NCBI GenBank assembly: GCA_002005505.1
Contig: KV908571.1
Span: 80,572-144,571 of the forward strand
Source of the DNA: Botryococcus braunii
Lineage: Eukaryota; Chlorophyta; Trebouxiophyceae
Direction of reading: 5' to 3'
DNA: 64,000 bases
The notes below the pieces were generated by a model. That model saw nothing but the letters and a program-made list of their open reading frames with translations, made no database searches and was not told where the DNA came from. The translations under genes and the position numbers were made by a program. Below are positions 5,776-33,300 of this stretch, piece after piece. The stretch's first letter is position 1. Each line of letters opens with the position of its first letter.

Positions 5776-7857
<2,082 letters not shown>

Positions 7858-8739
7858 TGTATACCTTAGGTAGTTATGTGACATGTTGGGTCATTTCATA
7901 TTAGCATGTTTGTAAGCCACATCTATCATTAAAAGGCTTTATAATACTTATAATACATATAAACAATAAGGTACAGTCATATCTCACTTGAGTGTGTTTG
8001 TACTGTAAGGTACTTTATGGTTATATGACACGCATAGTGATTTATAGGGGCCATGGTACAATTCCGGCCTGTTTTCTGCCAGTTTTCTAGTATAGTATAC
8101 TCATCCCGGATCTCATCGATCGTGAGACTTTAAGTCCTGCGGTCCTTGGTTTCTGATTCGTGACTTGTATCGATGATGAGTTAAAGTTCCGAGTCACTTA
8201 GATTCGAGACTACCATCGACCGAGATTCGTACTGTTCATCGACGACCATGTCGAATCATAAGGTACATTGAAATTCCAGTGCATAGTACTGATGGCATGC
8301 AAACTTGATCGTGCCCGTACGCTTTAAGATCTGGAGTTGCAAACCTGTCAGGAGGCTAATAAATGTGTAGTCTCCTTGGTTAGTACAAATAGGAAGTGCT
8401 CTAACAGGCCAGTCAGTCTTGAATTCCCTTATCAAGCTCCTGTGCCGTTTGCTTGGTCGTGTTTCGTCCAGTTCTACAAGCTTTTGTTTGAGCACAGTTC
8501 ACTTACTCTAAAACAGTGTGACTTACAGGTAATTGCAACATCATTAGTTAGTTGTTATTGTAAAAGTCTTGAGTTCCCTTATCAAGCTCCTGTGCCATTT
8601 GCTTGGTCGTGTTTCGTCCACTTCTACAAGCTTTTGTTTGAGCACAGTTCACTTACTCTAAAAGAGTGTGATTTACAGGGAGTAACATTTTAACTTCAAA
8701 TTCTACAAATTCTGTTTTGAAGATGCCATTTTGCGTAAA
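7858..8739 (+). repeat. 5' LTR of copia B, with duplicated R-like block
   Basis: 882 bp. Block copy 1 (8415-8528, 114 bp) ends TTACAG and continues with GTAATT. After 36 bp comes copy 2 (8565-8678, 114 bp), which ends TTACAG and runs into a 61-bp U5. The copies differ at about five sites. The 3' LTR has only one block. The LTR end is set by the last base shared with the 3' LTR and is not the usual CA. Confidence 0.8.
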
Positions 8740-9983: not shown

Positions 9984-10157
9984 TGTTATAATAGTGACAG
10001 AACATTTTTGGTGCCTTTCCCTCAGAAGAGTAATAGTGGCCAGATCAGCTTCGATGAATAATTGGTGGCAGAACCTGGGGGTTCTGCCAGATCCCATCTA
10101 GACCAATTGTACGTTGATTAGGAAGGATGAGGTAATCAGACACGATTTGCTAGAAAG

Positions 10158-10189
10158 GATTTATGACACCGGCGTGCAAGGACGAGGCA
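10158..10189 (+). promoter_or_regulatory. Putative TATA-like box and start site of copia A
   Basis: GATTTATGA (10158-10166) lies 23-31 nt before the CA at 10188/10189 where the duplicated block begins. E has a better TATATG at the equivalent place. The start site is inferred from the block boundary. Confidence 0.5.
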
Positions 10190-10335
10190 CTTGATTGGGA
10201 CATTAAAGGCACTTCGGGTGCTTATCTCTTGACTGTTGCCTATCAAGTCCTCATTCACATTCGGTCACTGCTTGTTCTCCTACACACAACAAGAGTACCG
10301 ACGAGCTAATCACCCTTCGTGCCCGGGTCATACAG

Positions 10336-10665
10336 GTAAACTGACGTTAAGAGACTAAAGCCTCATTGACAACGAGTTAGGAAAGGTCTAGGTAGTATTC
10401 TTAAGTTGATGCTAATGTTTTTCCTCGTTGAACACCGATAATGCAGACTATCGATAGTTACGTAGATTAAATAGTTTGAATTACGGAGCGATGAGAGAAA
10501 GCAAGTAGCATTGTAATGACTTGATTGGGACATTAAAGGCACTTCGGGTGCTTATCTCTTGACTGTTGCCTATCAAGTCCTCATTCACATTCGGTCACTG
10601 CTTGTTCTCCTACACACAACAAGAGTACCGACGAGCTAATCACCCTTCGTGCCCGGGTCATACAG
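10336..10665 (+). other. Putative 330-bp intron in the A 5' LTR that contains block copy 2
   Basis: CAG|GTAAAC at 10333-10341 looks like a 5' splice site. The end of copy 2 (ATACAG at 10665) could be the acceptor. Removing 10336-10665 would leave block-U5, exactly the same RNA leader as initiation at copy 2. Inferred by analogy with the multi-intron LTR of D. Confidence 0.5.
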
Positions 10666-10690
10666 GGAACGCCAACCTCAGAAGTTTACA

Positions 10691-11281: not shown

Positions 11282-11296
11282 CAGGGTCAGAACAGC

Positions 11297-14200
11297 ATGA
11301 AGAAGAAAGGTACCAGCATCAGCTCTGAATCAAAGTCAGCAGGAGAGGAATCCACGTCAACTCCTACCAGGGAGCCTTGCACTCCCAGCACCTCCAGAGG
11401 GGAAGGAGACACCCTCCCCAAGGTTATTGCCACTCAGGTCAAGGTCCATATAAAACTGCTACGAAAGGGCCAGAACTTTGTGGTTTGGGATAATGCTTTC
11501 ACTGCAGCAAATGATGCCAAGGGTTCCTTGCCAGCCATCCAACAATCTATGCCTGGGACCACCCACAATGCTGCTGCGTTGTTGTTGTTGTATGAGTCAG
11601 TACCAGAAGACTGGTTGGGGGAGCTGTCAAGTAAGCCATCTGCCTATGATGCATATGTGTATATCTGTAGGAAGTTTGTGGGAGGCTACAATACTCAGGC
11701 GAATGCTGACTGGCTAAAGGAGATGTCCCGTGGCATGAAACAAGGGGAAACCATCTCTCAGTATGTCAATAGGATTATCAATCTGAAAGGTTGCTTGAAA
11801 CGCAATGGACATGATCTTCTAGATGGGCACGTGGCCACCCAGATTGTGCAGGGGCTACCAGCAGCAGCCAACCCCCCTGGACTACTACCCACAGCAGTTG
11901 CTTATCCCCTGGACCAACTAGCAGATCTCATCTCCACCACAGCAGAAGCAGTGGGCTACGATGATGACCCAGACCTGCCTGCAGTGGTCATGATTGCCCA
12001 ACCAGTGCAGACTGTTGCAGCCCCTGCACCCACTGCCTGTGCTTTGGCTCAGACCAGACAGCCTGCAGACACAGAGACCAAGGTGGAGGTACGTGGTACA
12101 TGCAACTACTGCCACAAAAAGGGACACTTCTGGAGAGACTGCCGCAAGAGACAGAGGGACGCTGAAACCCAGAGGAATGTGGTGGCAGCAGTGCAGCAAC
12201 TGGCGGGCATGTGGCCCCAAGGTCAGTTTCCTGGAGGACCCCAGCCCCCTCCAGCAGTCCAGCATATCTTCCCGGCAGTGGGGGCATTCCCGCTGCTGCA
12301 TCCACCTCCTGGTCCACCTTCTCCCCCACCTGAAGGTATGCCACTCGTGGTATCCTATAATGTTCTCAAACCTTGCAAGGGGAGAAGTTCCAAACAGTCC
12401 TGGTTGGTAGACAGTGGTGCGTCAGTCCATCTTGTCAATGATCTGTCACTGTTACATGCCCCCACAGTCCATGCTGCTCCCATTCCTCTGCAGCTGGCCA
12501 CGTCTGATGCAACAGGAGGAATTACTGCCACTGGATCAATTTGCCTATTGAACCAGCAATCAATCCCGCTGTGGCTGCATCATGTCCAGTGTGTTCCCTC
12601 TGCAACGATGAACATCCTGTCTGTGTCAGCTGCCCTTCGTGATGGAGCCTGCTTTACCACAGACAGCATGGGTGCTTTTACCACAGTCTCTGGCCCGAAT
12701 GGCTGGAAGATGCCAGTTAGAGCAGAAAAAGGGCTTTATTATGTACATGACTGCTTATCTGTTCCACCAGTGCAATGGTTGTCACCAGTGGCAGCAGCAG
12801 TGAAGAGCAAACCCAAGAAGAATCTGCAGCATGATTGTGCGAAACGGTTTTTGTGGCACAGCAGAATGGGACATCCAGGCGAACCATGGATGCAGCGCCT
12901 GAGTAATGAACAGCTGGTCACAGGCATTGATACCTCCCTGTCATCCTGTGAGAACTGTCCAAAGTATTGTGAAGCATGCATTGAGGGGAAGCACACTCGT
13001 CCTCCCTTTGGAGAAAGTTCCAGGCCTGCAATAAATCCTCTTGACAGAATCCATATAGATACTGTAGGCCCTATTTCACCAGCAGCCGTCTCTGGGGAAC
13101 GTTTCTGGGTGACTGTAGTTGATGAGGCATCTGGATGGAAGGCTGTCCTACCTGTAAAGTCAAAGGATGTAATTGCATCAGTTGTCAGGGACCTGATCCT
13201 ATTTTGGCAGACAGAAAGAGGGACAACTGTTAAGTGCATTCGGTGTGACAGGGGCACAGAATTTATTAATTCCAGATTCAAGGAATTCTGTGCAACTCAG
13301 GGCACTAAGCTGGAGATGTCTGCCCCCTACACACCCCAGCAGAACGGGATAGCAGAGCGTGCCAACAGGACCTTGAAGGAGCGCACCAGAACCCTCCTCA
13401 ACTTTGCTGGTGCCAGCCCAGTCATGTGGAAAGAGGCCCTCGAGACAGCCTGCATCCTCCTGAATATGGGACCCAGTACAGGCAGGCCTCTCACTCCTTG
13501 TGAACTATTCATGAGATACAAGCCAGATGTGTCACTTCTTCGTACGTGGGGATGTCTGGCATTCGTGCATGTGCCTGATCAGCAGAGGGGGGTATTTGCA
13601 CCAAAGGCTGTGCCTGGCATGTTCAATGGTTATTCCCCAGTGTCCAAGGCATATCGTATTTATCTGGGAGGGGGAGTCTGGAGAGAGAGCAGAGATGTTC
13701 AATTTGTGGAGCACATCAGAGGAGCTTCTCGGGTGGGAATGTCCGCTCTCCTTGACCAGTCCCTGCAGTTCTCATATCCAGAAGGCTTGCCAGACCAACA
13801 CCCTCTCAGCAATCCTGCTGCCTCCTCACCTCAGTGCAGCACTCGGAAACAGGCTGTCAGCGCTCCCTGTCCCAGCAGCAGACCTGACAGCTCCTTCCCA
13901 GTACCCTCTGACCAGGCTGCAACCGAGCCTGATAGTCAGGGGAAGTCTTCCCAAGAGGAGGACATTTCCGATGGGTCTCCTGAATCAAGCACGGGAGAAC
14001 AGCTGCCGGACTTGGATCAGTCCGGGGCTCTGGACGCAATTCAACGACTGGCGCGAGGAAGCTCGGACAGTGGGCAACACCAACGGATATTAGAGAGAGC
14101 ACAGCTGTTACTGCGTAACACTCTTCCGGCAACGACCATTCCGCCTCCGGATGGACTGTCGCGGGCTCAACGCTATGAGCAACGAACTGCAGCTCGAGAT

Positions 14201-16540
14201 ATCCTGCTGGCACAGGATAAGGGAGAGAGCTGTGAGCGAGAGGGGTTGACTGATGGTGACACAGAGTCACTGGGACCAGGGGAAGTGCAGGAATTGGGTC
14301 AGATCACCGAGAGACCTGTTTCACCTGTAAGAGATGAGAGGGGGGCAGTCTCTGATCAGACTGCAGATGGTCCAAGTGAGCTGAGCTGTATGGGTGGGAC
14401 CTGCTCAGTGCCTGAGAGAAATGTTAGAGGTGAGAACTCAATATGTGATGCCCAAGGACAATGTGGTGCCAGCCACGCAAGTGTGGGCCATGCATGGGAG
14501 TGTGCTGCTGGGCCTGCGCCCCAGCGCTCATGTCTAATAGGGAGCAGACAGAGAGAGAGAGAGACATGGGCACAGCATCAAGACAGACCAAGAGCTCATG
14601 CAGTGCAGAGTGGTTCCAATGCCTGTGAGAGTCCAGACGGGACTGCAAACCGTCAGCCATGTGAGAGTGTGTCTGAGGAGGTGAATCGGAAGCCTGGACA
14701 GTGTGAGAACTCCCCCAATTACAAGAGCTTTCCGAGAGGTACCTGTGTTTGGGAGGATGATGTGAGAGTGTCTGACAGCAAGCTTGAGAGGGCACACTGT
14801 GAGTCTCGAAGAGAGAAAGAGCAGAGGGGAAGATCTGAGTCTGTGCCCACAGTGCCCACATGCAGTGCGGCGACCTTCAGCGAAAGAGTAGTGGGTGACA
14901 GTGAGGGTGAGAGCAAGCAAGATCAGGGGAAGCATACTGGGGTGAGATTTGGGAAGATTAGTGTCCCTTCCAGTCTAAGGGAGGCCCAGCAGTCCCCTCA
15001 ATGGGAATACTGGAAGGCAGCTATGCAGGAAGAGCAAAATTCGTTAGATGCTCATGAGGTAATGGAATTTGTTCCAAGACCTCGTGGTCATAAAGTAATC
15101 CCAGTTCACTGGATTTTTTCAGTGAAAATGGATGCACATGGTAATGTGCTTAGATTCAAGGCGAGGCTGGTGGCTCAAGGGTGTAGGCAAATTCCAGGCG
15201 TTGATGTAATGGAGGTATTTGCTCCCACCAGCAGTTATGGGTCTAGAAGAGCTTTGCTGTCAGTAGCTGCACAGGAGGGTCTTGAAATTCACCAGGTGGA
15301 TGTCAAGACTGCATTTTTGAATGGTGAATTAGAGGAGGAGGTCTATGTCACACAACCTCCTGGGTTTGAGAATGGGGATGGGAACACTGTGTGTCGCTTG
15401 AAGAAGGCACTGTATGGCCTGAAGCAAGCTCCAAGGGCATGGCATAAGACCCTTAATGAGAAGCTACATACCATGGGGTATGAGGTGTGCAAGAGTGATG
15501 CTGGGGTCTATGTGAAATGTTCTGTGGATGGAGGGAAATCCTTTGTGCTGATTTATGTTGATGATCTATTGATAGTTTCAAAGGGCATGAGTGAGATTGA
15601 GAGAGTGAAAGGGTTGCTGAAGCAGGAGTTCACCATTCATGATCTAGGAGAGGTGAAAGATTTCTTGGGCTGCCAAGTGATGAGAGATAGAGAGAAAGGG
15701 CTGATTTCTTTGAGCTGCATTCCCAAGATTGATGCCCTAGTTGAGAAGTTTGGGCTGGATCTGGAGTCTGTGGGGCCTGACACCCCTATGACTAAGGATT
15801 TTGTAGCCACACAGCGACCTGTGTCTAAGGACAACAGTGCCAGCATTGGAGCTGGGAGTCCCTTACCTCCAGGTCACAGATATTGTGAACTGGTTGGATC
15901 ACTGTTGTACATTGCCAACACCACCAGGCCTGATATTTCCCAGGCTGTGGGAGTGCTCTCCAGATACAGGATTACTCCCACCACTGCTCACTGGAATGAA
16001 GCCATCAGAGTGTTGAAATATCTGATGGCTACCAGGGATCTTGTTTTAGTACTTGGAGGGAAGGACACAGAGCTGGAGGGCTTTGTGGATGCAGATTATG
16101 GTGGTGATCAGGATCATCGTTTTTCCACCACTGGTTACGTAATTCGTGTGTTTGGAGGAGCTGTAGTTTGGGGAAGCAAGAAGCAGTCTGCAGTGGCCAC
16201 ATCCACTGTAGAGGCTGAGTTTATGGCAGCGAGTGCAGCTGTCAAAGAGGCCAATTGGATGAAGGGATTCCTGGAAGAAATTGGTATTTCTCCATGGATT
16301 GTGAAGATCCACTGTGATAATCAGGGATGCATCAATCATCTCAGAAATCCAGTGTTCTCTAAGCATACTAAGCACATTGCAATCAGCTTTCATTTTGCTC
16401 GGGAAGCTATTGCATTGGGGCAGGTTGATGTGAAATACGTTCCTTCTGCTAGGAATGTGGCAGATATATTTACCAAGCCTCTGACTAGGCAGGTATTTCA
16501 GAGTCATCGTGAGGCTCTGGGACTGGCCAAGTTTTTGTGA
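11297..16540 (+). CDS. gag-pol polyprotein of copia A, intact
   Basis: 1747 residues in one frame, in Ty1/copia order. The gag domain is about 45-230 (GQNFVVWDNAF to LADLISTTAEAV). A zinc knuckle C269-C282 (CNYCHKKGHFWRDC) is followed by protease with WLVDSGASVHL (Asp 372). A GAG-preintegrase HxxH/CxxC region precedes integrase with D588, D651 and E687 (spacing fits D-X60-D-X35-E). A long low-complexity, charged linker of about 350 residues leads to reverse transcriptase with LIYVDDLLIV (Asp 1422/1423). RNase H follows (EGFVDADYGGDQDHR, STVEAEFMAAS, HCDNQGCINHLRNP, VADIFTKPL). The linker is the only poorly conserved part expected. With identical LTRs this is very probably functional. Confidence 0.97.
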   Translation: MKKKGTSISSESKSAGEESTSTPTREPCTPSTSRGEGDTLPKVIATQVKVHIKLLRKGQNFVVWDNAFTAANDAKGSLPAIQQSMPGTTHNAAALLLLYESVPEDWLGELSSKPSAYDAYVYICRKFVGGYNTQANADWLKEMSRGMKQGETISQYVNRIINLKGCLKRNGHDLLDGHVATQIVQGLPAAANPPGLLPTAVAYPLDQLADLISTTAEAVGYDDDPDLPAVVMIAQPVQTVAAPAPTACALAQTRQPADTETKVEVRGTCNYCHKKGHFWRDCRKRQRDAETQRNVVAAVQQLAGMWPQGQFPGGPQPPPAVQHIFPAVGAFPLLHPPPGPPSPPPEGMPLVVSYNVLKPCKGRSSKQSWLVDSGASVHLVNDLSLLHAPTVHAAPIPLQLATSDATGGITATGSICLLNQQSIPLWLHHVQCVPSATMNILSVSAALRDGACFTTDSMGAFTTVSGPNGWKMPVRAEKGLYYVHDCLSVPPVQWLSPVAAAVKSKPKKNLQHDCAKRFLWHSRMGHPGEPWMQRLSNEQLVTGIDTSLSSCENCPKYCEACIEGKHTRPPFGESSRPAINPLDRIHIDTVGPISPAAVSGERFWVTVVDEASGWKAVLPVKSKDVIASVVRDLILFWQTERGTTVKCIRCDRGTEFINSRFKEFCATQGTKLEMSAPYTPQQNGIAERANRTLKERTRTLLNFAGASPVMWKEALETACILLNMGPSTGRPLTPCELFMRYKPDVSLLRTWGCLAFVHVPDQQRGVFAPKAVPGMFNGYSPVSKAYRIYLGGGVWRESRDVQFVEHIRGASRVGMSALLDQSLQFSYPEGLPDQHPLSNPAASSPQCSTRKQAVSAPCPSSRPDSSFPVPSDQAATEPDSQGKSSQEEDISDGSPESSTGEQLPDLDQSGALDAIQRLARGSSDSGQHQRILERAQLLLRNTLPATTIPPPDGLSRAQRYEQRTAARDILLAQDKGESCEREGLTDGDTESLGPGEVQELGQITERPVSPVRDERGAVSDQTADGPSELSCMGGTCSVPERNVRGENSICDAQGQCGASHASVGHAWECAAGPAPQRSCLIGSRQRERETWAQHQDRPRAHAVQSGSNACESPDGTANRQPCESVSEEVNRKPGQCENSPNYKSFPRGTCVWEDDVRVSDSKLERAHCESRREKEQRGRSESVPTVPTCSAATFSERVVGDSEGESKQDQGKHTGVRFGKISVPSSLREAQQSPQWEYWKAAMQEEQNSLDAHEVMEFVPRPRGHKVIPVHWIFSVKMDAHGNVLRFKARLVAQGCRQIPGVDVMEVFAPTSSYGSRRALLSVAAQEGLEIHQVDVKTAFLNGELEEEVYVTQPPGFENGDGNTVCRLKKALYGLKQAPRAWHKTLNEKLHTMGYEVCKSDAGVYVKCSVDGGKSFVLIYVDDLLIVSKGMSEIERVKGLLKQEFTIHDLGEVKDFLGCQVMRDREKGLISLSCIPKIDALVEKFGLDLESVGPDTPMTKDFVATQRPVSKDNSASIGAGSPLPPGHRYCELVGSLLYIANTTRPDISQAVGVLSRYRITPTTAHWNEAIRVLKYLMATRDLVLVLGGKDTELEGFVDADYGGDQDHRFSTTGYVIRVFGGAVVWGSKKQSAVATSTVEAEFMAASAAVKEANWMKGFLEEIGISPWIVKIHCDNQGCINHLRNPVFSKHTKHIAISFHFAREAIALGQVDVKYVPSARNVADIFTKPLTRQVFQSHREALGLAKFL

Positions 16541-16558: not shown

Positions 16559-17265
16559 TGTTATAATAGTGACAGAACATTTTTGGTGCCTTTCCCTCAG
16601 AAGAGTAATAGTGGCCAGATCAGCTTCGATGAATAATTGGTGGCAGAACCTGGGGGTTCTGCCAGATCCCATCTAGACCAATTGTACGTTGATTAGGAAG
16701 GATGAGGTAATCAGACACGATTTGCTAGAAAGGATTTATGACACCGGCGTGCAAGGACGAGGCACTTGATTGGGACATTAAAGGCACTTCGGGTGCTTAT
16801 CTCTTGACTGTTGCCTATCAAGTCCTCATTCACATTCGGTCACTGCTTGTTCTCCTACACACAACAAGAGTACCGACGAGCTAATCACCCTTCGTGCCCG
16901 GGTCATACAGGTAAACTGACGTTAAGAGACTAAAGCCTCATTGACAACGAGTTAGGAAAGGTCTAGGTAGTATTCTTAAGTTGATGCTAATGTTTTTCCT
17001 CGTTGAACACCGATAATGCAGACTATCGATAGTTACGTAGATTAAATAGTTTGAATTACGGAGCGATGAGAGAAAGCAAGTAGCATTGTAATGACTTGAT
17101 TGGGACATTAAAGGCACTTCGGGTGCTTATCTCTTGACTGTTGCCTATCAAGTCCTCATTCACATTCGGTCACTGCTTGTTCTCCTACACACAACAAGAG
17201 TACCGACGAGCTAATCACCCTTCGTGCCCGGGTCATACAGGGAACGCCAACCTCAGAAGTTTACA
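16559..17265 (+). repeat. 3' LTR of copia A
   Basis: Reads identical to the 5' LTR, offset 6575. Block copies are at 16764-16910 and 17094-17240. It is preceded by the purine run AAGGCAAGGGGAAG. Confidence 0.96.
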
Positions 17266-19350: not shown

Positions 19351-20005
19351 ATGTCTGCCAACTGTTCAGTGACCAAGTATGGGATTCCTGTTTTGTATGG
19401 GCTTGGTAATCTGCAGGATTTCTTTCACAGTTGTTGCCATTCTTTCAAGTCCCATATTGTGGATGGGCATGGTTTGTGTAGAGAGTTTCAGACATCCCCC
19501 CATGCCAGTGACTTGATCAATCCTGTGTGCATGTATAAGAGAGATGCAGCTCCTCAACTTCTTTCTAGTGATGCTCATGTTGTCTTGTTTGTTGATGGTA
19601 GTAACAGGGAGTGTACTGTTAGCCAGCTTGTGTCACAGCTACTGCCAGGTACTAGATTGACTGTGCTCTCTTGCCTAAGCCACTGTGAACAGGTGCTGGA
19701 AGGGACTACACAACAACAGTCTCATGATGTATTGCTCTCGGCTTCTGTTTTGGATGCACTGGGTCTTACTTCCACCTTTAAGAGCTCACCCCACTGCAGT
19801 TCCCATGCAGGCTTGCCCTTATATCGTTGCCTGGTACAGACTGGTTGTCTCAGTGTGAAGGAGAAACCCCTGCCCGCAACTTCTTTTGACTCTTTTGTTC
19901 AGCTTGACAGTAGACACATTGTGAATGGTCTTGATCTTTTCTCCACTTGCATAGAGTTTGAGGGAATTCTTGCTAGTAGACATGTCAGGATTTTGTTGGA
20001 CAGTG
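19351..20005 (+). pseudogene. gag-protease linker of chromovirus C
   Basis: An open frame of unknown function (MSANCSVTKYGIPVLYG...) that ends FEGILASRHVRILLDS, the start of an aspartic protease site. Element D cuts it in the middle of D-S-G; the frame resumes at 27787. Confidence 0.75.
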
Positions 20006-20409
20006 TGTTGTGTAAACTGATAGGTACGTATAGATACGTGATGGCAAACGTACAAGGGTACTATCAGTTTAACATGTGGTTTTAGGAAACATTGTATAAC
20101 TAGAACCTCTCCACGTGTGGAGTACAAGAAAGAGGATGCGCCTGATTGCGTTTCTAGGGTTAATGTATTGTGATCAGTTTGGTTGATCATATAGAGACCT
20201 CCATGCAGTACAGGTCTTGTACTGGTGACGATGTGTCACAAGTAATAGACTCCAGTGAGCGTGTACACGTGTATAAGTTCAGGATTTGTGGTACAGTTGT
20301 AAGGCTACACGATGGCATAGGGCCGTGTCAGGGTTGTTTATGTGACCATGCAGTACGGTACAGCCTCTCGAAAGGAACTGTCCCGTTACCGCCGGTTACG
20401 ATCAGGAGG

Positions 20410-20442
20410 TATAGAAACGCCAGATCGCGAGCAAGCTTGGCA
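20410..20442 (+). promoter_or_regulatory. Putative TATA box and start site of copia D
   Basis: TATAGAAA at 20410-20417 lies 32 nt upstream of the C|A at 20441/20442 where the duplicated block begins. The start is inferred from the block boundary. Confidence 0.6.
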
Positions 20443-21083
20443 GTCTCGATGGGGTGTGGAATGCATCTGGGCTTCGAACTCCAAGCTGAATAGTGTTTGC
20501 TCTGTATTGAAGGACTGCTTGATATACTGCTGTCACATTCATTTCAATACAGGTAAGCTTGCGATCGCTGGCAAGGGTAACGGTCGCAGTCGTGTGGCTG
20601 CGATCGTAGGCGTTAAGCACATGCATACTGATGTTTCTGCTGATTATGAAACATTACATGTGTCTTGTGTTGCAGGAGCTGCATTGCTTGTATGTTACTG
20701 TTGTGCGAACAGTAAGGCTATTTGTGTGTGACGAGTTGCACACTGGTTATAGCGGTGAGTACACATACGTATAACAAGCATGCTCCTGCTGGTTAAATAA
20801 CTGTTTTGTTTTGATCTCTGATGATCCACATATTGTGCAGATTGGTTGGGAGTAGCCATTAAACTCCTGGGACTGCTGAAGGGCCAAGGGTGTCCTGATC
20901 GGAGAGCAGTCGGTACGTACACATATGTGGATAGGTTGCGTGTGTGTTTTATGTGGTTTAGATATATTTTATGGACACTGATGAACCCACAAGTAAATCG
21001 TAACGCTCGGGTGCAGGCAGATATAGACGGCAGTGCGAGCACTGGTCTATATAGACATTGAGAGTACTTGGTGGTGTTCACAG
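20442..21083 (+). other. D LTR block copy 1 (unspliced, four exons)
   Basis: Exons 20442-20552, 20676-20754, 20841-20912 and 21017-21083. Introns: 20553-20675 (123 bp, GTAAGC...TTGCAG), 20755-20840 (86 bp, GTGAGT...GTGCAG), 20913-21016 (104 bp, GTACGT...GTGCAG). A further donor, CAG|GTAAAT, follows exon 4 at 21084. The introns are proved by their exact absence from copy 2. Confidence 0.92.
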
Positions 21084-21110
21084 GTAAATATACGTAAACC
21101 ATTTGTAACG

Positions 21111-21439
21111 AGTCTCGATGGGGTGTGGAATGCATCTGGGCTTCGAACTCCAAGCTGAATAGTGTTTGCTCTGTATTGAAGGACTGCTTGATATACTGCT
21201 GTCACATTCATTTCAATACAGGAGCTGCATTGCTTGTATGTTACTGTTGTGCGAACAGTAAGGCTATTTGTGTGTGACGAGTTGCACACTGGTTATAGCG
21301 ATTGGTTGGGAGTAGCCATTAAACTCCTGGGACTGCTGAAGGGCCAAGGGTGTCCTGATCGGAGAGCAGTCGGCAGATATAGACGGCAGTGCGAGCACTG
21401 GTCTATATAGACATTGAGAGTACTTGGTGGTGTTCACAG
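21111..21439 (+). other. D LTR block copy 2 (processed, intronless)
   Basis: 329 bp, equal to the summed exon lengths of copy 1 (111+79+72+67) and identical in sequence across all three joints. It then continues CAG|GGGATACG into U5, where copy 1 continues CAG|GTAAAT. It is a cDNA-like copy of the spliced leader. Confidence 0.94.
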
Positions 21440-21508
21440 GGGATACGTCTCTCTTCATGCAAACGGACCGCTGACTTTTACGGCAGCCTCCACTCAATAC
21501 ACTACAAA

Positions 21509-21523
21509 GGTCATGGGCCCACC
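21509..21523 (+). other. Primer-binding site of copia D
   Basis: GGTCATGGGCCCACC, 2 nt after the LTR. It matches the initiator tRNA-Met anticodon-arm type of A, E and F with one change (T to C). Confidence 0.7.
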
Positions 21524-24500
21524 GCTCGTTGCATGCAAGACGACGACGTCATCCTGATAGAAGACACTAGAGAGAAAAGAGCCACGCGGGGCCGTACGGT
21601 CAGTGGGGCTGCAGATAGAGTCAGAGTGGTAAAGATACACTCTGAAAGACAAGTGGTTACTGATTAGTAGCCAGCAGTACAGTGAGAGAGCAGCTGCAAA
21701 ACAGGCGAGCGGGCTCGGGGTTTGAGACGACTGGATGGAGCTACATCGACAATTGGCTCCATTAGACAACATCGGATACGGCTTGCAACCTGGAGAGTTG
21801 TGCATGTGGCAATGGGGATGCACCTTCTCATTGATTGTGGCCGAGCCAACTGATGTGTCATTTGAAAGATGGGGTTGTTGTTTGTATGCTTGCTTCAGGG
21901 GTGGTTGTTGTGAAAATGCTGGTTGGCGTGAAAGAGCGCAGTTGGATTTGATATCATTGATGTGTGGTGATGTGGAGTTTCAGCCAGGGTGATTACATAA
22001 TTCACATCACGGTGCATGGTACCAGATGTACTTTGGGAGCGTGATTTGGTGCTGTGTGAAGATCAAGATGTTGGGAGATTGCATGCAAGAGGAGTGAGTG
22101 GCTTCTTGTGAAGTTGTTGAAGCTATCATATCAGAGGCATGTGATGACTGGGTTTTGTTGATATCATGTTCATTGTTGAGTGAACATTGGAGTTCAAAAT
22201 CCTTAGTGTATGTAAATCACTTAAAAGCGTGAGTCAGTTTTGGCATTGTGAAGCAATGAAGTGGAGGGAATATGGCTGGTCTGACTGGGCTGGCATGAGT
22301 AAAAGTGAGCATGACACTGATTTTGAGTTGCATTGATTGAGGATGCAAGGGAAGAGGATGGCTGGCGGGCTCATTGAGTACCTCAAGCAACTCCTGCTGG
22401 AGCTGGCCCCACGATGAGGTGTCATTGGGGGCACATCCTCTCGGGCGGTCTACCGTTTCTTCTGTAGGTTTGTCCTATTGATGTTAGGATTTAAGCCTGA
22501 ACCAAGAAAAAGAAAAGGGGGCTCTTGGCAGGAGCCTACTTGGTGTCGAAGAGACAGTGATAATGAGTATGTGCAAGTTATGTATGTACATGGGCTGAGT
22601 TACATGATACTAGATTGGGTGTAGAGTTAGTATGAATTGTCTCTGGTGCACATTCATGTGCATGTGTGTGTTGTAGGATAGTGCAGCACATGCATATCTT
22701 AATCAACAGAGGGACTTGTTGATCAAGATAAGATATATAGGGTTGAGTGAGGATGAGAAATTGCATGGCAGCAACTAGAGCCTAAAAGTGTGTGAGCTGA
22801 GTATGCTGTCCAAATGTGGGAGTGTTTGGGCCAAAGCTGATGCATAATTGGGTCATGAGAAGTTTAAAAGTTATCGGTGCGATCACGCGTTTAGGTGGTG
22901 AAGACTGGTATTGCACCAAGTTATTAGTGCTTTACTATGATGGCTTAAGGTAATGGCAATTGTCTTCAAACCTTGTGCCCAGATCTATGAAAGGGGAAAT
23001 CAGAGTGGTTAGCGCAGAAATATTGGAGTGAGTAGGTTTCAGGTTATCGTTGCGTAAACGTGTGGGTTTCCAAGACTCAGGTTCTTGCCCGGAAGAGGGA
23101 GGGGAGTTTTGGGAGACGCAAAGAAGTGTACCTGGGGCTCAGAAAGTTGAGATGTGAGATCCTTCAAGCTCTACACCATCAGTTTTTTTTTGAAAGTACA
23201 GAGGATTTCAAGTTGATTATGGGACTGATCATGATCCAGAGAGAGTAGACTTGGGAAGGAAAAATTGAACAGGGTAGTGGAAATCTGGTATTCCTTTGAG
23301 GGTTCTGGGGAAGATGTAAATGTTAGTACTGCATCAGGTTGTGGTACATGAAGTGTGAAATCTGGATTAGATGATAAAGAATTGTTGGGGTACATGAGTT
23401 GTGATAAAAACACTTGGAACACATTCACAGTGATGGGATGGGTTGCAGTAGAAAGAGGGTGCTCTTCACATCAAAAAACAAAAGAGGAAGGGGATGACAA
23501 GAAATGCTTAAATTTTGCTCAAAAGTTGGTAGCAGAGTTAGAGCATCCATGGTGCATTTTGGTTCAAAAGGTTTAAACATAGAGGAGGGAAGTTCATGCC
23601 AAATTGGACTGAGGTATCCTAGTATGGAGTAGGCATTTAATCCTCCTAATGTTGTGGTTGGGAATCCAAGAAAACAAAGGGATGAGATGTTTCCTGTCTT
23701 GTTTTTTGGTTGGTTTAGATGTTTAGGCATGTAGCTGAGAGTCAGGGGTAGGACTCAAGTAGCTGTACTTGCTTAAAACTCCTTGGAGACAGCATGTTTC
23801 GATCAACTCATATGTCATGAGGGATGTGCCTGTGTGTATGTTTACACTAGCACCATGATCTGAAGATTTACATATGGTTGGATTGCCAGGTCATGCTGAT
23901 GATTACGATTGCATGTGTTAAGATGGGGCATCTGTTCTTGTTGAGAGCAGTTGCTGCCTTAATGGTGAGTATTTGTTGGAATATTGGTGCAAGGGGACCA
24001 TTCTGATGAGAGGCTGGTCACTTCCTTGTTTCCTGTGACAATTTTCTGACAAGATAAGACATGATGTTGATTGGAGTATTGAGGTGGGGATGGGCCATGA
24101 TGTGTGATGGCTGGAATACTCTTGTGTGTGTGACAGACAACCTTTTGAGGTGAAATCTAGTTGAGAAGATACTGCACATTGTTAAGGATTGTAATTTTTC
24201 CTCCAGGGTAGTCAATTTAATTCTACAATCTTCTGTAGAGTTGTTAAGATTTTGGTTAAAATTGGAAAGGGGTTGTGGCTGGTTAAGTGCTTTCAGACAT
24301 CGTTGCGCTGGTGCGCAGCGTGCAAGATTGCCACTAGAAACACTTGGAAAGAGGTCTTTTAGTGTGGCATTAAGGTTGAGATAATTTTTTTTTTTAGAAA
24401 ATACTTAGACAATTTGGTGTGAACTGAGTGTTCTCCTGGTCCTGAATGGCTCAGGGAGGCCTTGTAGCTCTTACTGCACAGAAAACGTGCTAGGTCTAGT

Positions 24501-25439
24501 TCTCACACGTTAGTGAGAGAGACTGCACGTCGATTTCTGGTTTTACGGTTCGACTCGAGTGAGTTCAAGTGGTAGTCACGCGGTTTTAAGCTTGACACTC
24601 CGTGTCGAGTCGTGAATTTTGATCGGGGTACTGTTCGATACTCCGGACGATTCGTGGTTCGAATCTCCTAAGTTGTTTTTACCACTTGAGTTCGAGTGGT
24701 AGTCACGCGGTTTAGGCTTAAGACTCCGTGTCGAAGTGTGAATTCTGTTGATCGAGGTACTGGTCGATACTCCGGACGATTCGTGGTTCGAATCTCTTAA
24801 GTTGTTTTAACCTCATGATTTATCTCAGCCATGGTTATTGGCTGGGACCTTGCTGAGGATCTTTTGTGTTTTGGCCCTTGAACATTTGGTCACTCTGTGT
24901 GTGCCGTGCATCTCCCCAGGGTTTGAGAGGAGGTATTTGGAAACACTTAAGTATGTACTGACAGCCTTGTTTGTTGTCGGCGCTGAGCTCTCTACTGGTT
25001 GGTTGAGTACAATGGTAGAACTCATGAATTGGATTGCATTGCAGTTTGTTGCATGATATGCATGTTGTTTGCAGGTACGGGAGTGTACCTGGAAACTATA
25101 TAGTGGTTTTAACAATAGAAGTGTTGGTTGGGGACTGCTAATTTGTAGTCCCGCGCTTCTGGTTATTCAAGCTTTGTGAATTGAGGTGGTTGGCACCTTA
25201 TGGTAGAGGGTTGGTTCTGCTAACAACGGTGGTTCTAGACTAGTAAGTATGTTAAGAGTGCTCGTATCTTTCTTGAAGGGGAAGGGACAGCATGTAGTAC
25301 ATGTTTGTGTTGTGGTCATCAAAGAAAAAGTTGTACTTTGGATTCTTGCTGTGTTCCAATGCCAGGATGAGTACCGGTCGGGGGAAGCAAAGGAACGGGG
25401 AAGCAAGAAGTTGGTACGAAGTATTCTCAGATCTTTGGG
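21524..25439 (+). other. Non-coding internal region of copia D
   Basis: Nearly 4 kb, T/G-rich on the plus strand, with only short frames. No copia protein domain was recognised. It holds a two-unit tandem repeat (24555-24810) and three matches to a TTATCGTTGCG-type motif (22871, 23044, 24299). Confidence 0.6.
24555..24810 (+). repeat. Two-unit tandem repeat with tRNA-promoter-like boxes
   Basis: Two units of about 130 bp share AGTGGTAGTCACGCGGTTT and GACGATTCGTGGTTCGAATC. GGTTCGAATC matches the pol III B-box consensus and AAGTGGTAGTCACGCGG loosely resembles a tRNA D-arm/A box. The region cannot be folded into a normal tRNA. Confidence 0.6.
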
Positions 25440-25479
25440 GAAGAGAATGCGGGTTCTGGATCTTCACGGCCGGACCGAC

Positions 25480-26137
25480 ACCGGTACTTGGAGCTCATCG
25501 GATCGCTGCAATGTTTGGCCAATATCACACGGCCAGACATCTCACATGCAGTTAGCCTGCCGGCACGTTATTGTGCAGCCCCAACCACTGCACACATGCG
25601 TGCAGGGTTGAGGATTGTGAGGTATCTGTTAGGTACCAAGGATACGGGATTGGTGTACGAAGGAAAGGGGAAGCAAAGTCTGACTGGCTTTGTTGACTCT
25701 GATTTTGCGGGGGATGTTGATACAAGAAAATCAACACCGGTTTCGTGTTCATGCTAAATAGGGGAGCAGTGTCGTGGGGAAGTAAGAAGCAACAATCAGT
25801 TGCGACTTCAACTGTTGAGGCCGAATTTATTGCGGCAAGTCACGCAATAAAGAAAGGTGTGTGGCTTGGGAGCTTGTTGGAGGAGCTTGGTCAGGCAGTG
25901 TCGGGTGTAGAATCGAGGATGGACAACATGGGTTGTATTGCAAATCTGCAGAACCACGTGTTGTCCAAATACACCAAGCACATTAGCGTGTGCTATCATC
26001 AAGCGAGGGAGAAGGTTGCATGGGGGCAAATCACGCCAGTGTACGTCAGCACAGAAGACAATGTGGCTGATATTTTCACAAAGCCGTTGGCCGGTCCTGT
26101 CTTCCCCAAGCACCGTGACAGCTTGAGAATGGGTTAA
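25480..26137 (+). pseudogene. pol: RNase H tail of copia pol in element D
   Basis: ELIGSLQCLANITRPDISHAV, LTGFVDSDFAGDVDTRKST, then after a frameshift near 25740 GAVSWGSKKQQSVATSTVEAEFIAAS, MDNMGCIANLQNHVLSKYTKHI and NVADIFTKPL. This is the C-terminal end of a Ty1/copia polyprotein. Everything upstream of it is gone. Confidence 0.9.
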
Positions 26138-26280
26138 CCCTAGAGAGTTGAAGTTCTAGGGCTTTAGGGCTTTAGGGCTTCACAGTGCCTAAGTTAACTC
26201 GGAAGAGTAGTGCGTTGACTGGAACAATTGAACTCATCATTATTGAACGTTGTTATAAATGTTTTCTAAAAGGGGAAGAT

Positions 26281-27781
26281 TGTTGTGTAAACTGATAGGT
26301 ACGTATAGATACGTGATGGCAAACGTACAAGGGTACTATCAGTTTAACATGTGGTTTTAGGAAACATTGTATAACTAGAACCTCTCCACGTGTGGAGTAC
26401 AAGAAAGAGGATGCGCCTGATTGCGTTTCTAGGGTTAATGTATTGTGATCAGTTTGGTTGATCATATAGAGACCTCCATGCAGTACAGGTCTTGTACTGG
26501 TGACGATGTGTCACAAGTAATAGACTCCAGTGAGCGTGTACACGTGTATAAGTTCAGGATTTGTGGTACAGTTGTAAGGCTACACGATGGCATAGGGCCG
26601 TGTCAGGGTTGTTTATGTGACCATGCAGTACGGTACAGCCTCTCGAAAGGAACTGTCCCGTTACCGCCGGTTACGATCAGGAGGTATAGAAACGCCAGAT
26701 CGCGAGCAAGCTTGGCAGTCTCGATGGGGTGTGGAATGCATCTGGGCTTCGAACTCCAAGCTGAATAGTGTTTGCTCTGTATTGAAGGACTGCTTGATAT
26801 ACTGCTGTCACATTCATTTCAATACAGGTAAGCTTGCGATCGCTGGCAAGGGTAACGGTCGCAGTCGTGTGGCTGCGATCGTAGGCGTTAAGCACATGCA
26901 TACTGATGTTTCTGCTGATTATGAAACATTACATGTGTCTTGTGTTGCAGGAGCTGCATTGCTTGTATGTTACTGTTGTGCGAACAGTAAGGCTATTTGT
27001 GTGTGACGAGTTGCACACTGGTTATAGCGGTGAGTACACATACGTATAACAAGCATGCTCCTGCTGGTTAAATAACTGTTTTGTTTTGATCTCTGATGAT
27101 CCACATATTGTGCAGATTGGTTGGGAGTAGCCATTAAACTCCTGGGACTGCTGAAGGGCCAAGGGTGTCCTGATCGGAGAGCAGTCGGTACGTACACATA
27201 TGTGGATAGGTTGCGTGTGTGTTTTATGTGGTTTAGATATATTTTATGGACACTGATGAACCCACAAGTAAATCGTAACGCTCGGGTGCAGGCAGATATA
27301 GACGGCAGTGCGAGCACTGGTCTATATAGACATTGAGAGTACTTGGTGGTGTTCACAGGTAAATATACGTAAACCATTTGTAACGAGTCTCGATGGGGTG
27401 TGGAATGCATCTGGGCTTCGAACTCCAAGCTGAATAGTGTTTGCTCTGTATTGAAGGACTGCTTGATATACTGCTGTCACATTCATTTCAATACAGGAGC
27501 TGCATTGCTTGTATGTTACTGTTGTGCGAACAGTAAGGCTATTTGTGTGTGACGAGTTGCACACTGGTAATAGCGATTGGTTGGGAGTAGCCATTAAACT
27601 CCTGGGACTGCTGAAGGGCCAAGGGTGTCCTGATCGGAGAGCAGTCGGCAGATATAGACGGCAGTGCGAGCACTGGTCTATATAGACATTGAGAGTACTT
27701 GGTGGTGTTCACGGGGGATACGTCTCTCTTCATGCAAACGGACCGCTGACTGTTACGGCAGCCTCCACTCAATACACTACA
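26281..27781 (+). repeat. 3' LTR of copia D
   Basis: Same structure as the 5' LTR, offset 6275: block copy 1 from 26717, copy 2 at 27386-27714. A few substitutions occur, for example GGTTATAGCG to GGTAATAGCG near 27569, CACAGGG to CACGGGG near 27712, and one T/G near 27752. Confidence 0.95.
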
Positions 27782-27786
27782 CAGTG

Positions 27787-28923: not shown

Positions 28924-30143
28924 TGTCACGTCCTTTATAGGGTACCCGTTACCCAAGGTAGACAAATTTTTTCCTGATTGAAATCGCAGATTATGCAACT
29001 ACGGTTAGTAATAGCTGGGCTGCGGCTTCTGTATCAAGGTAAATTATGCGGATCGCCACTCAAGGATTCGGCCTTGAGACCTGGATTACCGGATTACTGG
29101 ATTACTGGTGCTTACGATTGTGCGACTCGAAGGCTGGAGGTTACAATCGGAGACTGCTACGGTTCAAGTCTCGGATGTTTTAGTCGGGGATTTGTAGTCG
29201 GGGTCACCGGCTTACGGCCTAGCACCGGCCGGACTATCGGACTTTGGGGTTGACGTCTGGAGTATGAGTTCAACTGATGTGATAGGTCGTGCGTTTCACT
29301 TCCAAAGGTACTAAATGGAATTATTATTACTCTGTTATTAGGTTTTGTAGCTCCCTTTTAGGATTCGGGCTGGTCCACGTTCGGTGTTGTTGCGGCTTGG
29401 ATGGAGCGGACTGGAAAGCACCTTGCGGCACTGGTAAACGGAATTATGAAAGATGTTATAGTGATCAAATAATTATCGAAAGTATTACGTCGGGTCAAAT
29501 TGTTGTATCTCTATGTATAACGTGCGGTTATATCTCTGATCAAAACTTAAGTTCAACCACGTAGAGTGTTATCGTTCGGAAACTATCAGGGTTTGGGTAT
29601 TATTTAGTAAGACAATACTGATAATCTGACACTTAGGGGTGTTGCTTCACGACTACGACAAGTCAGGTCGAGTGGATCAAGTACGATGATGCAAGTAGGC
29701 AAACAGACAGGCACATTAACGCAGTGGTCACGGACGAGGCTAGTAGGAATGTTGGGATTCAAACTTGTGCGGTTACAAAGACTCACGACAGAGGTTTCCC
29801 TCACCTAACTTCCTAGCACAGCGTGGTTTAGAGGACGGCTGGACGCCCTTATATAGTCGTCCCCGAACTTACGCGGAGATTCTGGAAGATTCTGGACCCT
29901 TCTAAGGGCTTGGGCACACTGGACGGTCTCGATTCCGATTTCCGCATGAAATGTTGCCACGTGAATCAGTACCGCAGGAATCGGAAGAGCGGCAGCAGCA
30001 CACTTCACCGCTGAACCGCATGCGAGCAACATATAAAGATTTCACCACAATTGTCTTGATCATCCCGTTAATGTATGTTTCTGAAAAATACTGACATTCA
30101 GGCTTTCTTCATTTGATCTTTTCTGACGGGTTAAGTTAGGATT

Positions 30144-31703
30144 ATGGTCCCGGAACTTCTTCCGGTGCTGGTCGGCATACAATTTCTGCAAAATGCAGCT
30201 TTATTTCTGATCTTAGCACGTTCATTTGGTTTAGTTGGCTTCCCAAGAAGGGAATGGTGGGTACTGCCGAGGTATGGACAGTGTTCTACGGTGTGTATGT
30301 CGGGGATTGTTTACCTCCGTCTGCCTCCACCTGGAACGTTTGGCTGACCTATGCATGTCATGATGCTGGGTTGATGTTTCGATTTCCAGGTCCACGCACT
30401 GGTGGGATACAATCGTCTGTAAACAGTGGGAAGAAGAGTTCGATATTGAACGCAGGGATGTAGCATACATAAGGGTAAGCTATAACCACAGTGATGGTGA
30501 AATTTGATTAACGAGGGCGCCCATTTTCCCTGTCTCATCTTTCTTTGCTTGCCTTCGTTATCCACAGCTTAACAGCCTCCTTTTTGAATGGCACATGTGG
30601 CATGTGTATTGCAGGCATTTCGAGTTGACAAAGCCACATTCAATCTCATCAGTAATATTGTGGAGTTACATGTAAAGAAATGCGATACCCGCTGGAGGCA
30701 GGCTATTGATGTGCGACGTAGAGTAGGTATTGCACTATATCGTTTGGGCCAAGGCAGCACATATGCAGAAACTGGCGAAAAATTTGGAGTCGGGGCCAGC
30801 ACAGCTAGGAAAGTTTGTAAAGAAGTTTTCAGGGCATTATGGAGAAAAAGAAAAATGTACATTGGGTGGGGTGAGGGTAATGAGGGGTTGATGTCAACCA
30901 TGAACAAGTTCAGTACACAATTGGGTTGGCCAGGATGTGTGGGAGCCATAGACGGCTGTCATATCCCAATCTCCAGCCCTCCACATTCTGGTGGAGTATA
31001 TTATAACAGAAAGTCCTTCCACAGTATCATTTTTCAAGGAGTTGTTGATGCAGATCGAAGGTTTGTGGACATTGACATCGGATACCCGGGGATAAACCAT
31101 GATGCATTTGTATACAGCAGAAGTAAATTTTATTCCTTTGCAAGAAACAGGTTTGGTTTGACTAACAAGAAAATACGGGTAGGAAGAGGACACAAAGTGG
31201 TTCCATATGTGTTGGGGGACCCTGCATACCCCTTGTCCCCATGGTTGATGAAGGGTTTTCCCTCATCAAGGTGCAAAGACAAACGGCTTGCATTCTTTAC
31301 ATACAAATTAAGTCGTGCTCGCATGAGAGTAGAACAGGCGTTTGGAATACTGAAGCAACGCTGGAGATTGTTGAAGGTGGAGCAAAAGGTTCAAGTCAGG
31401 GATCATTGCTATGCGGTAGGAGCAGCATGCATCCTGCACAATATTTGTATTGAAAGGAAGCTAAAAATGGTTGATCCAACATTGAATGAACTTAATCGAG
31501 ACGATTTGAGGACTGCTGAGCTTGATGACATTTTGAGAAGAGCGGGTCTTGAAGCAACCACGCTGTCATCAGCTGAAGATCCCCTTTGGAGTCATGAGCT
31601 ACCTAGGGTGAGAAGTAAGGGGGAAAAAATGAGGGACATTCTAGTCAAGCATTGGGAGCATTCATCTCAGTTTTCTAGATGGGAAAATCCACATCAAACT
31701 TGA
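30144..31703 (+). CDS. Harbinger-type DDE transposase, three exons
   Basis: Exons 30144-30271, 30390-30474 and 30615-31703 give 433 residues. Introns use GTATGG...TTCCAG and GTAAGC...TTGCAG, and phases fit. Exon 1 ends in PRREWWVLPR and exon 2 gives HWWDTIVCKQWEEEFD, the usual N-terminal region. Exon 3 begins AFRVDKATFNLIS, where FRMS.xTF is typical. DDE_Tnp_4 catalytic positions: Asp in GAIDGCHIPIS, Asp in DIGYPGINHDAFVYS, Glu in RVEQAFGILKQRWRLLK. A helix-turn-helix-like segment (GSTYAETGEKFGVGASTARKVCKEV) precedes the core. Length fits the family and no lesion is visible, so it may be active. The start codon is the first in the open exon 1 frame and is less certain than the rest. Confidence 0.9.
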
Positions 31704-31931
31704 TGTGGAAATAAGCGTCTTAAGACATACGGTGTTAAAGCTTGATATCTTGTACGTACAGATATTGTCATCCTTTGTGAAATGCTGATGTGGAGCTACA
31801 TTGCATTTCATTGATATGTAATCTGGAATATGCTTGTGTCCGGATGATTTAAATGCATATTTGACCATTGTTTATTCATTTGCACATGAGTTTCGGAAAT
31901 GTTTCTGCATACTAATACAGAATGTAACAAC

Positions 31932-33300
31932 TCGGCATCGTGCGCGCAACGATAAACCAAACTGGCATGGGCACCTCACATTTCCCAGTAATACCCAAAA
32001 TTCTCTACACATGTCCATTTCATCTCACACGCCATTTAGCTTTGCTATGAAAGAAGTGTCTATGCTAATGATGTCCAGCAAGACTGACCCTCCCTCTGAA
32101 CCTCGTTCCCTGACTTGCAGAGTTGGCAGAAATGTCAATATTCACACAAGTCCAATCCATCTTACATGCAAGTCAGTTATCCCATAAACCTAGTGTCTAT
32201 GCTATTGATGGCAAGGATGATGCACTCTCTGAAATTCATTCCCTTAACTTGAGAATATGCTACATTGTGAGAGTATAATCCAACTGGTCTCGTGCGCGCA
32301 ACGATAAAACCAAACTTGCATGGGCACCTCATATTTCATAGTAATGCCCAAAATTCTCTAAACATGTCCATTTCATCTCACATGCCACTTAGCTTTGCCA
32401 TGAAAGAAGTGTCTATGCTAAGGATGTCCAGCAAGACTGCCCCTCCCTCTGAACCTCATTCCTTGACTTGAAGCATTGGCAGAATTTTACCATTTACACA
32501 AGTCCAGTACATATTACATGCAAGTCAGGTATCCCATAAAACTAGTGTCTATGCTATTATGACCAGCAAGGATGATGCACTCTCTGATATTCATTCCCTT
32601 AACTTGAGAATATGCTACATTGTGAGAGTATAATCCAAGTGCCCTCGTGCGCGCAACGATAAAACCAAACTTTGCATGGGCACCTCATATTTCACAGTAA
32701 TGCCCAAAATTCTCTAAACATGTCCATTTCATGTCACATGCCACTTAGCTTTGCCATGAAAGAAGTGTCTATGCTAAGGATGTCCAGCAAGACTGCCCCT
32801 CCCTCTGAACCTCATTCCCTGACTTGAAGCATTGGCAGAATTTTACCATTTACACAAGTCCAGTACATATTACATGCAAGTAAGCTATCCCATAAAACTA
32901 GTGTCTATGCTATTATGACCAGCAAGGATGATGCACTCTCTGAAATTCATTCCCTTAACTTGGAATATGCTACATTGTGAGAGTATAATCCAAGTGCCCT
33001 CATGCGCGCAACGATAAAACCAAACTTGCATGAACACCTCACATTTCCCATTAATGCCCAAAATTCTCTACACATGTCCATTTCATGTCACATGCCACTT
33101 AGCTTTGCCATGAAAGAAGTGTCTATGCTAATGATGTCCAGCAAGACTGACCCTCCCTCTGAACCTCATTCCCTGACTTGCAGAGTTGGCAGAAATGTCA
33201 ATATTCACACAAGTCCAGTACATCTTACATGCAAGTCAACTATCCCATAAAACTAGTGTCTATGCTATTGATGGCAAGGATGATGCACTCTCTGAAATTA
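31932..33300 (+). repeat. Tandem array of four 355-bp repeats in the Harbinger element
   Basis: Units start near 31935, 32286, 32642 and 32998. Each starts with TGCGCGCAACGATAAA, then CATTTCAT.TCACATGCCA.TTAGCTTTG and AGTGTCTATGCTA. They are diverged by roughly a tenth. No coding function; no second (Myb-like) Harbinger gene is seen in 31704-33830. Confidence 0.9.

Follow-up and report, generated by a model that had tools for sequence, protein, structure and literature searches.

How can a long terminal repeat (LTR) come to hold, side by side, an intron-bearing leader and the same leader with its introns precisely removed? This question is raised by element D, which occupies positions 20006-27781 of the window, the 64,000-nucleotide stretch of Botryococcus braunii DNA analysed here. 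Self-comparison of the window delimited two LTRs of 1501 bp each on the + strand (20006-21506, TG..CA, and 26281-27781), which are 99.8% alike. The element is flanked by the 5-bp repeat CAGTG (20001-20005 and 27782-27786).

An unspliced and a spliced leader in one LTR

In the 5' LTR of element D, all features of which lie on the + strand, a TATA-like box (TATAGAAA, 20410-20417) starts 32 nt 5' of the first leader copy (copy 1), and the first base of this copy, A20442, is the putative transcription start. Copy 1 consists of exon 1 (20442-20552), intron 1 (20553-20675, 123 bp, GTAAGC..TTGCAG), exon 2 (20676-20754), intron 2 (20755-20840, 86 bp, GTGAGT..GTGCAG), exon 3 (20841-20912), intron 3 (20913-21016, 104 bp, GTACGT..GTGCAG) and exon 4 (21017-21083), which ends in TTCACAG. 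It is followed by a 27-bp spacer (21084-21110), the putative start of a fourth intron with the donor GTAAAT, which ends in TTTGTAACG and contains TGTAA at 21104-21108 and then two variable junction bases (21109-21110). In copy 2 (21111-21439) exon-join comparison found the same four exons joined without introns, and U5 (21440-21506) follows. The three segments absent from copy 2 all start with GT and end with AG, and the joined exons of copy 1 (111+79+72+67 = 329 bp) are identical to copy 2 at 329/329 positions; the introns, spacer and spliced copy described in a sequence-only reading of this DNA were exact in coordinates and arithmetic. Copy 1 runs on as CAG|GTAAAT, copy 2 as CAG|GGGATACG into U5. 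The 3' LTR has the same two-copy layout (copy 1 26717-27358, spacer 27359-27385, copy 2 27386-27714), with the joined exons differing from copy 2 at 2/329 positions. We propose, from the sequence, that the TTCACAG closing copy 2 may be the 3' splice site of intron 4, and that the first ~10 nt of copy 2 may act as the 3' R.

The internal part begins with a putative tRNA primer binding site region (AAGGTCATGGGCCCA, 21507-21521). A remnant of the 3' end of a Copia-like pol (25721-26137) was read by eye beside the related locus L046, a Pfam search of this remnant giving no match. The polypurine tract (AAAAGGGGAAGAT, 26268-26280) adjoins the 3' LTR.

Four families with a common plan

Self-comparison of the window also revealed families A and B, both closed with target duplications, and family C, all on the + strand. 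The LTRs of family A (9984-10690 and 16559-17265, flanking repeat AATAC) accompany a Copia frame (11282-16540). The 5' LTR is composed of copy 1 (10189-10335), CAG|GTAAAC, TGTAATG, copy 2 (10519-10665) and U5, then GGTTATGGGCCCA, and the 3' LTR has the same layout. Family B (37984-38683 and 42254-42953, flanking repeat GTAAG) likewise shows, in its 5' LTR, copy 1 (38190-38324), CAG|GTGCGG, TGTAACGG, copy 2 (38522-38656) and U5, then GGTTATGGGCCCA, with the same layout in its 3' LTR. Family C, for which the LTR ends are approximate, is present in two forms: an LTR at 7856-8739 with copy 1 (8415-8528), CAG|GTAATT, TGTAAA, copy 2 (8565-8678) and U5, in which the copies differ at 5/114 positions, and a spliced-only form at 58050-58782 with a single leader joined straight to U5. 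All four families thus follow the plan U3 - leader - CAG|GT donor ... TGTAA - 1-4 nt - second leader copy - U5. In families A, B and C copy 1 lacks internal introns, and copy 2 closes with copy 1's CAG before U5. Comparison of the LTRs of the four families detected no significant similarity (best E 0.33).

A scan of the window for TGTAA beside a repeat returned seven places on the + strand, all in families A, B, C and D, and eight on the - strand, where TGTAA precedes both copies and so belongs to the repeat itself. A second scan covered the window and 74 loci for repeats having TGTAA or an AG|GT edge. Beyond family D it found only families A, B and C and the A relatives in L034 and L018; L033 and L050 were incomplete. 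The A relative in L034 shows the full pattern, and that in L018 has its copy 2 cut by a D element. Genome-wide (176 Mb), TGTAA-N(0-4)-copy 2 occurred 522 times for family A, 589 times for B and 109 times for D, the controls giving 0; copy-1 edges numbered 553 for family A and 675 for family B. Among the matches listed, a copy-1 edge lay 313-334 bp upstream of 75/90 A and 71/81 B junctions, and 75/100 A and 71/98 B copy-1 edges had a junction downstream.

Two further observations concern family A. When its intron part in the window (10336-10518) is set against L034 (1469-1649), AATGCAG|ACTATC, a possible inner acceptor, is kept, the leaders themselves differing by 25%. On the - strand, at 5116-5488, a diverged relative of the family A LTR (76-83%) has a single leader copy joined to U5 and is apparently a spliced-only LTR. 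Other repeats in the window include a ~355-bp tandem repeat in four copies (31928-33315) beside a frame at 30588-31703 that by eye looks like a DDE-type transposase, and two long pairs that are 98-99% alike (28936-29905 with 45167-46136; 34395-34917 with 46133-46653).

In Pfam searches L046 had gag_pre-integrs upstream and RVT_2 (4.4e-61) downstream, family A had RVT_2 (9.2e-67), and the frame upstream of the family C LTR at 58050 had RVT_2 (2e-9). Matching 5-bp repeats like those of elements D, A and B were found at 7/11 further loci (L037, L040, L041, L042, L045, L046, L053); of the other four, three (L043, L044, L056) are parts of arrays and one (L050) reaches a stretch of N. A search for the tRNA primer with one guessed tRNA pattern gave 0 matches; GGTTATGGGCCCA, present in A, B and L040, resembles what we take to be a copia half-tRNA primer site. 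The LTR pair together with the Copia reverse transcriptase of its relatives assigns element D, on sequence grounds, to the copia type, D itself keeping a pol remnant only.

Family D across the genome

At up to 3 mismatches, the genome contains 144 unspliced E1|intron joints and 141 spliced E1|E2 joints of family D (reversed-pattern controls 0), which, together with the hundreds of junctions in families A and B, rules out chance or an assembly artefact. From 100 unspliced and 100 spliced joints among the matches listed, 90 clusters were formed, and the 74 loci read contained 77 distinct family D LTRs, whole or partial. The complete order U3-copy 1-spacer-copy 2-U5 was present in 54/77 and the two-copy plan without a matching U3 in 2/77, and 12/77 were interrupted or truncated. 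The others were four spliced-only LTRs (both LTRs of L046, L068, L069), one LTR retaining intron 1 only (L048), one with unspliced copy 1 joined straight to U5 (the 5' LTR of L042), one with unspliced copy 1 alone and copy 2 absent (L033), and two with three modules (the 3' LTR of L037, L060). L033 may be an untouched ancestor, although its LTR, too, ends close to where the junction usually lies. In L046 the 1434-aa frame is intact and the two LTRs are identical except at 1/840 positions, so that spliced-only copies at least get made. In L042 and L037, the two LTRs within one target duplication differ from each other. Partial splicing is not directly proven by the triple, spliced-only and mixed LTRs, since slippage between repeats yields the same products.

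The splice sites of copy 1 are conserved in family D: among the scored LTRs, the intron-1 site CAG|GTAAGC was found in 67/67, the intron-2 site AGCG|GTGAGT in 54/64, and CAG|GT 3' of exon 4 in 58/61. Alignment of the family yielded 57 LTRs with two complete modules, and none of the 64 complete last modules in the family D LTRs read held an intron. This fits the earlier proposal that copy 2 derives from spliced RNA and was attached to an RNA whose 3' LTR had kept its introns.

Several loci are arranged in other ways. L056 and L057 (C735:3067-16898) contain three LTR units spaced ~5.66 kb from one another. A CA microsatellite replaces the polypurine tract here, and the units probably represent one old LTR expanded into a tandem array. 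On C41 (396713-419942), L043 has a polypurine tract upstream of the expected outer LTR edge and L044 a PBS downstream of it, resembling tandem LTR-internal-LTR arrays. The 5' LTR of L031 and the LTRs of L061, L070 and L071 lack U3 or part of copy 1 and keep TGTAA, copy 2 and U5; L061 and L070 begin at an identical point of exon 4. A family A-type LTR interrupts the family D LTR of L034 inside intron 1 (from about 1100), and in L018 (610-1054) copy 2 of a family A-type LTR contains the start of a family D LTR. In L033 (1752-2281) a 76-bp repeat, its copies ~450 bp apart, includes a stretch resembling a tRNA (GATCGAACCCTCGAC) and may be a small non-autonomous element.

Concerted change of the two copies

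If copy 2 had been formed once and then inherited, the copy 1s of different LTRs should resemble each other most. The opposite was found. From the 57 LTRs in which both modules are complete we took 43 for the distance test, one per 14.5-kb neighbourhood. Copy 1 and copy 2 differed on average by 0.96% within an LTR versus 4.8% after re-pairing, and 0/10,000 permutations were as low as the observed value. Between LTRs, copy-1 and copy-2 distances correlated at 0.996. Copy 1 was strictly nearest its own copy 2 in 13/43 LTRs, tied in 21 and nearer to another LTR in 9, the margins in these nine being small except for C413 and C630. In C630 (L051) copy 2 matches the subfamily of U5 and copy 1 that of U3, which looks like a cross of two subfamilies, as transfer between two RNAs would predict.

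In a tree of both copies from 12 divergent family D LTRs, 10 copy-1/copy-2 pairs make their own fork (2 identical pairs, 3 starred); C3:1002347 and C184:117981 fall in unresolved forks. Forcing the copy 1s of these 12 LTRs into one clade cost 369 log-likelihood units (p-AU 1.1e-41). Across the 57 two-copy LTRs, with the LTRs of one element counted apart, a non-majority base was present in both copies in 418 cells, in copy 1 only in 90 and in copy 2 only in 76, and in 51 exon columns at least two LTRs had such a base in both copies. Copy-specific patterns common to at least two LTRs totalled 29. The C735 array, with its three units, accounted for 12 of these and the two LTRs of one element for 2; in 7 the bases at one column differed, and in 7 (columns 71, 151, 185, 190, 219, 286 and 289) separate loci had the same base. 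The pattern at column 205 was common to two LTRs 13.7 kb apart on C41. The same-base patterns at separate loci are likely repeated hits, inheritance being also possible. The copies differ at 4-7% in the C735 array and, over C735, L062 and L074, at 13-21 of 313-323 positions, which we read as age.

Family A shows 0 differences between its copies both in the window and in L034, yet the window and L034 differ at 37/150 positions, so concerted change also takes place in this family. The low distance within LTRs, the tree and the shared changes rule out a single origin followed by passive inheritance as the rule. That the copies are alike within an LTR while LTRs diverge points to copy 2 being repeatedly remade from copy 1 by splicing. 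This repeated remaking and the spliced origin of copy 2 are strongly supported by the sequence comparisons, and the conserved splice sites of copy 1 and the joint evolution of the copies strengthen the original case for spliced RNA. Of the view that spliced cDNA was joined to an unspliced end, the spliced source stands and the single accident does not: family D remakes copy 2 repeatedly, and families A, B and C follow the same plan.

Junction bases and flanking signals

At 68 junctions in 66 family D LTRs, the bases between TGTAA and copy 2 were CG (40), TG (14), CC (10), and CT, C, GG and G (one each). In family A at least 54 junctions among the matches listed comprised eight forms of 1-4 nt: G (20), TG (17), TAG (5), C (5), AG (2), TAC (2), GGT (2) and AGGC (1). 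The sequence 5' of copy 1, by comparison, was GGC in 68/70 family D rows, the rows without it being the spliced-only L069 and one that represents a junction rather than a copy-1 start. Variable bases at one point are expected where each new RNA 5' end gets copied. A junction G could be a copied cap, and C or AGGC could reflect a start slightly upstream; some of the TG forms may result from CpG decay of CG.

A TATA-like box starts 29-32 nt 5' of copy 1 in all four families. Inspection by eye of families A, B and C found none 5' of copy 2; family D has AAATATA 25 nt 5' of copy 2, and a transcription start at copy 2 is possible in this family. In most chlorophytes examined, TGTAA serves as the poly(A) signal, and UGUAA has its peak near position -17 of the cleavage site (PMC1868727). 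With TGTAA 1-4 nt 5' of copy 2, such a peak predicts an RNA end ~10 nt inside copy 2, which is probably where the RNA ends if the chlorophyte rules hold for this host. An RNA ending inside intron 4, as had been suggested initially, is therefore probably not what is made today.

A proposed cycle of splicing and strand transfer

The best explanation, and one that we consider likely, is a copia-type LTR that is rebuilt through splicing in each cycle, with transfer over a short R. From sequence we infer where its RNA starts and ends, that the copy-1 donor is spliced to the end of copy 2, and that the transfer takes place. Transcription would begin in the 5' LTR, with the first base of copy 1 as the start. 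Splicing of the leader would remove introns 1-3 in family D and, in all four families, an intron from the copy-1 donor to the closing CAG of copy 2, enclosing TGTAA and the whole of copy 2. The mature RNA would then have the 5' end copy1-exons|U5-PBS, and its poly(A) signal would be stripped from that end. The 3' LTR would be kept unspliced, and the RNA would be cleaved shortly 3' of TGTAA, ~10 nt into copy 2, so that its last ~10 nt would match its 5' end and form a short R. Minus-strand strong-stop DNA made on the spliced leader would pair with this short R and be extended through TGTAA, the unspliced copy 1 and U3. The resulting LTR would be U3-copy 1-TGTAA-(new) copy 2-U5, in which copy 1 would be the inherited template and copy 2 the fresh spliced product.

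Splicing of the leader between the copy-1 donor and the closing CAG of copy 2 yields exactly the product observed, while unspliced RNA from copy 1 would make the LTR one module longer per cycle; the end of copy 2 is a plausible acceptor. Transfer at an internal exon could generate spliced-only and mixed LTRs, which, without the junction TGTAA, should be poor templates. Some points count against the proposed cycle. It does not account for the loss of introns near the cap when the same introns are retained in the 3' LTR; either one RNA is spliced near the cap only, or two RNAs take part. In addition, slippage between repeats is another possible source of the triple, mixed and spliced-only LTRs. 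Taking the families together, we lean towards a class of copia-like elements, comprising at least four families and more than a thousand LTR junctions in this genome, in which the first strand transfer would depend obligatorily on splicing and copy 2 would be remade in every cycle. In such a class the poly(A) signal and the 3' R would lie inside an LTR intron and the 5' R in the other leader copy.

Copy 2 might instead be remade each cycle from spliced RNA whose two ends are linked, by ligation or a Ty1-like branch, and copied across, with no pairing at a short R. The junction 1-4 nt 3' of TGTAA, varying in both length and letters, would suit such linking, and a Ty1 RNA lariat that aids minus-strand transfer has been proposed (PMC1266399). 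However, cleavage in chlorophytes ~12 nt past the motif (if -17 is its first base) would leave ~12 nt rather than 1-4, and the junctions read had no run of more than 4 A, so that we regard linked ends as rather unlikely. It is more doubtful still that the two-copy LTR arose once and was passively inherited, with RNA starting at copy 2 as an ordinary R and copy 1 being upstream sequence. The variable U3/R-like junction would be accounted for in this way too, and the AAATATA of family D is in a suitable place; but the copies should then diverge separately and in fact change together, the TATA-like boxes seen by eye in A, B and C lie solely 5' of copy 1, and copy 1 would have no evident reason to retain splice sites.

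Gene conversion or unequal exchange at the DNA level could also keep the copies within an LTR alike, and the spliced-only L046, L068 and L069, the mixed L048, the 5' LTR of L042, the triple 3' LTR of L037 and L060 all fit, as do the unlike LTRs that L042 and L037 each hold inside one target duplication; the exchange or template switching in these odd LTRs would lie at E1, E2, E4, E3 and E4. Introns should then also have entered the last module, which holds one in 0/64 cases, and such exchange gives no reason for the constant position of TGTAA and CAG|GT at the edges in four families. DNA-level exchange is highly improbable as the explanation. Least credible of all, and close to negligible, is a tandem DNA duplication with introns entering copy 1 later: no specific support for it was found, it requires three insertions into copy 1 alone plus ongoing exchange of exons, and the repeat edges coincide with the likely promoter start and splice donor in four families.

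Implications and comparison with known systems

LTR elements must start and end their RNA in the same repeat and yet not end it at the first one. If splicing-dependent transfer operates as we propose, the 5' poly(A) signal would be spliced out and restored at strand transfer, host splicing would be tied to reverse transcription, and LTR elements would have a new way to rebuild their ends. With copy 1 inherited and copy 2 new, an insertion could be dated from how far the two have diverged, which would work in a solo LTR too; the junction bases could record RNA 5' ends.

A search of the open-access literature found no LTR of the present kind, and lentiviral vector work on an LTR intron (PMC5542766) is unrelated to these LTRs. 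The LTR of foamy viruses carries the major splice donor 5' of the poly(A) signal, and U1 snRNP at this donor suppresses 5' polyadenylation (PMC3694450), a parallel for the first half of the proposed cycle. A donor-like CAG|GT precedes the putative poly(A) signal TGTAA in families A, B, C and D; relatives of the present elements, however, encode Copia RVT_2, which sets them apart from the spumavirus lineage. To our knowledge, a foamy virus LTR holds no complete intron and no spliced copy. The plant LTR elements EVADE and Ogre have introns that sit outside the LTR. Parts of PMC12786077 describe these introns as functional and their RNA as spliced, with splicing yielding subgenomic RNAs, unlike what we propose here; its passages on the barley copia element BARE report dual promoters that give RNA classes with different fates and do not mention a duplicated spliced leader.

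A close likeness is to Ty1/copia elements (Pseudoviridae), with which the present elements have in common TG..CA LTRs, 5-bp target duplications, a polypurine tract, RVT_2 and gag_pre-integrase in relatives, and a putative copia-like PBS (GGTTATGGGCCCA). We know of no leader splicing in Ty1, nor of more than one leader copy per LTR. The branch in the RNA lariat proposal for Ty1 (PMC1266399) would aid minus-strand transfer, a likeness to the present case. The LTRs described here differ from those of Ty1/copia in holding an intron-bearing leader and its spliced copy, and the R at the two RNA ends would stem from two different copies. A standard U3-R-U5 LTR has one unspliced R that reaches from the transcription start to the poly(A) site and is the same at both RNA ends; the structure of the present LTRs and the concerted change of their two leader copies argue against such an arrangement.
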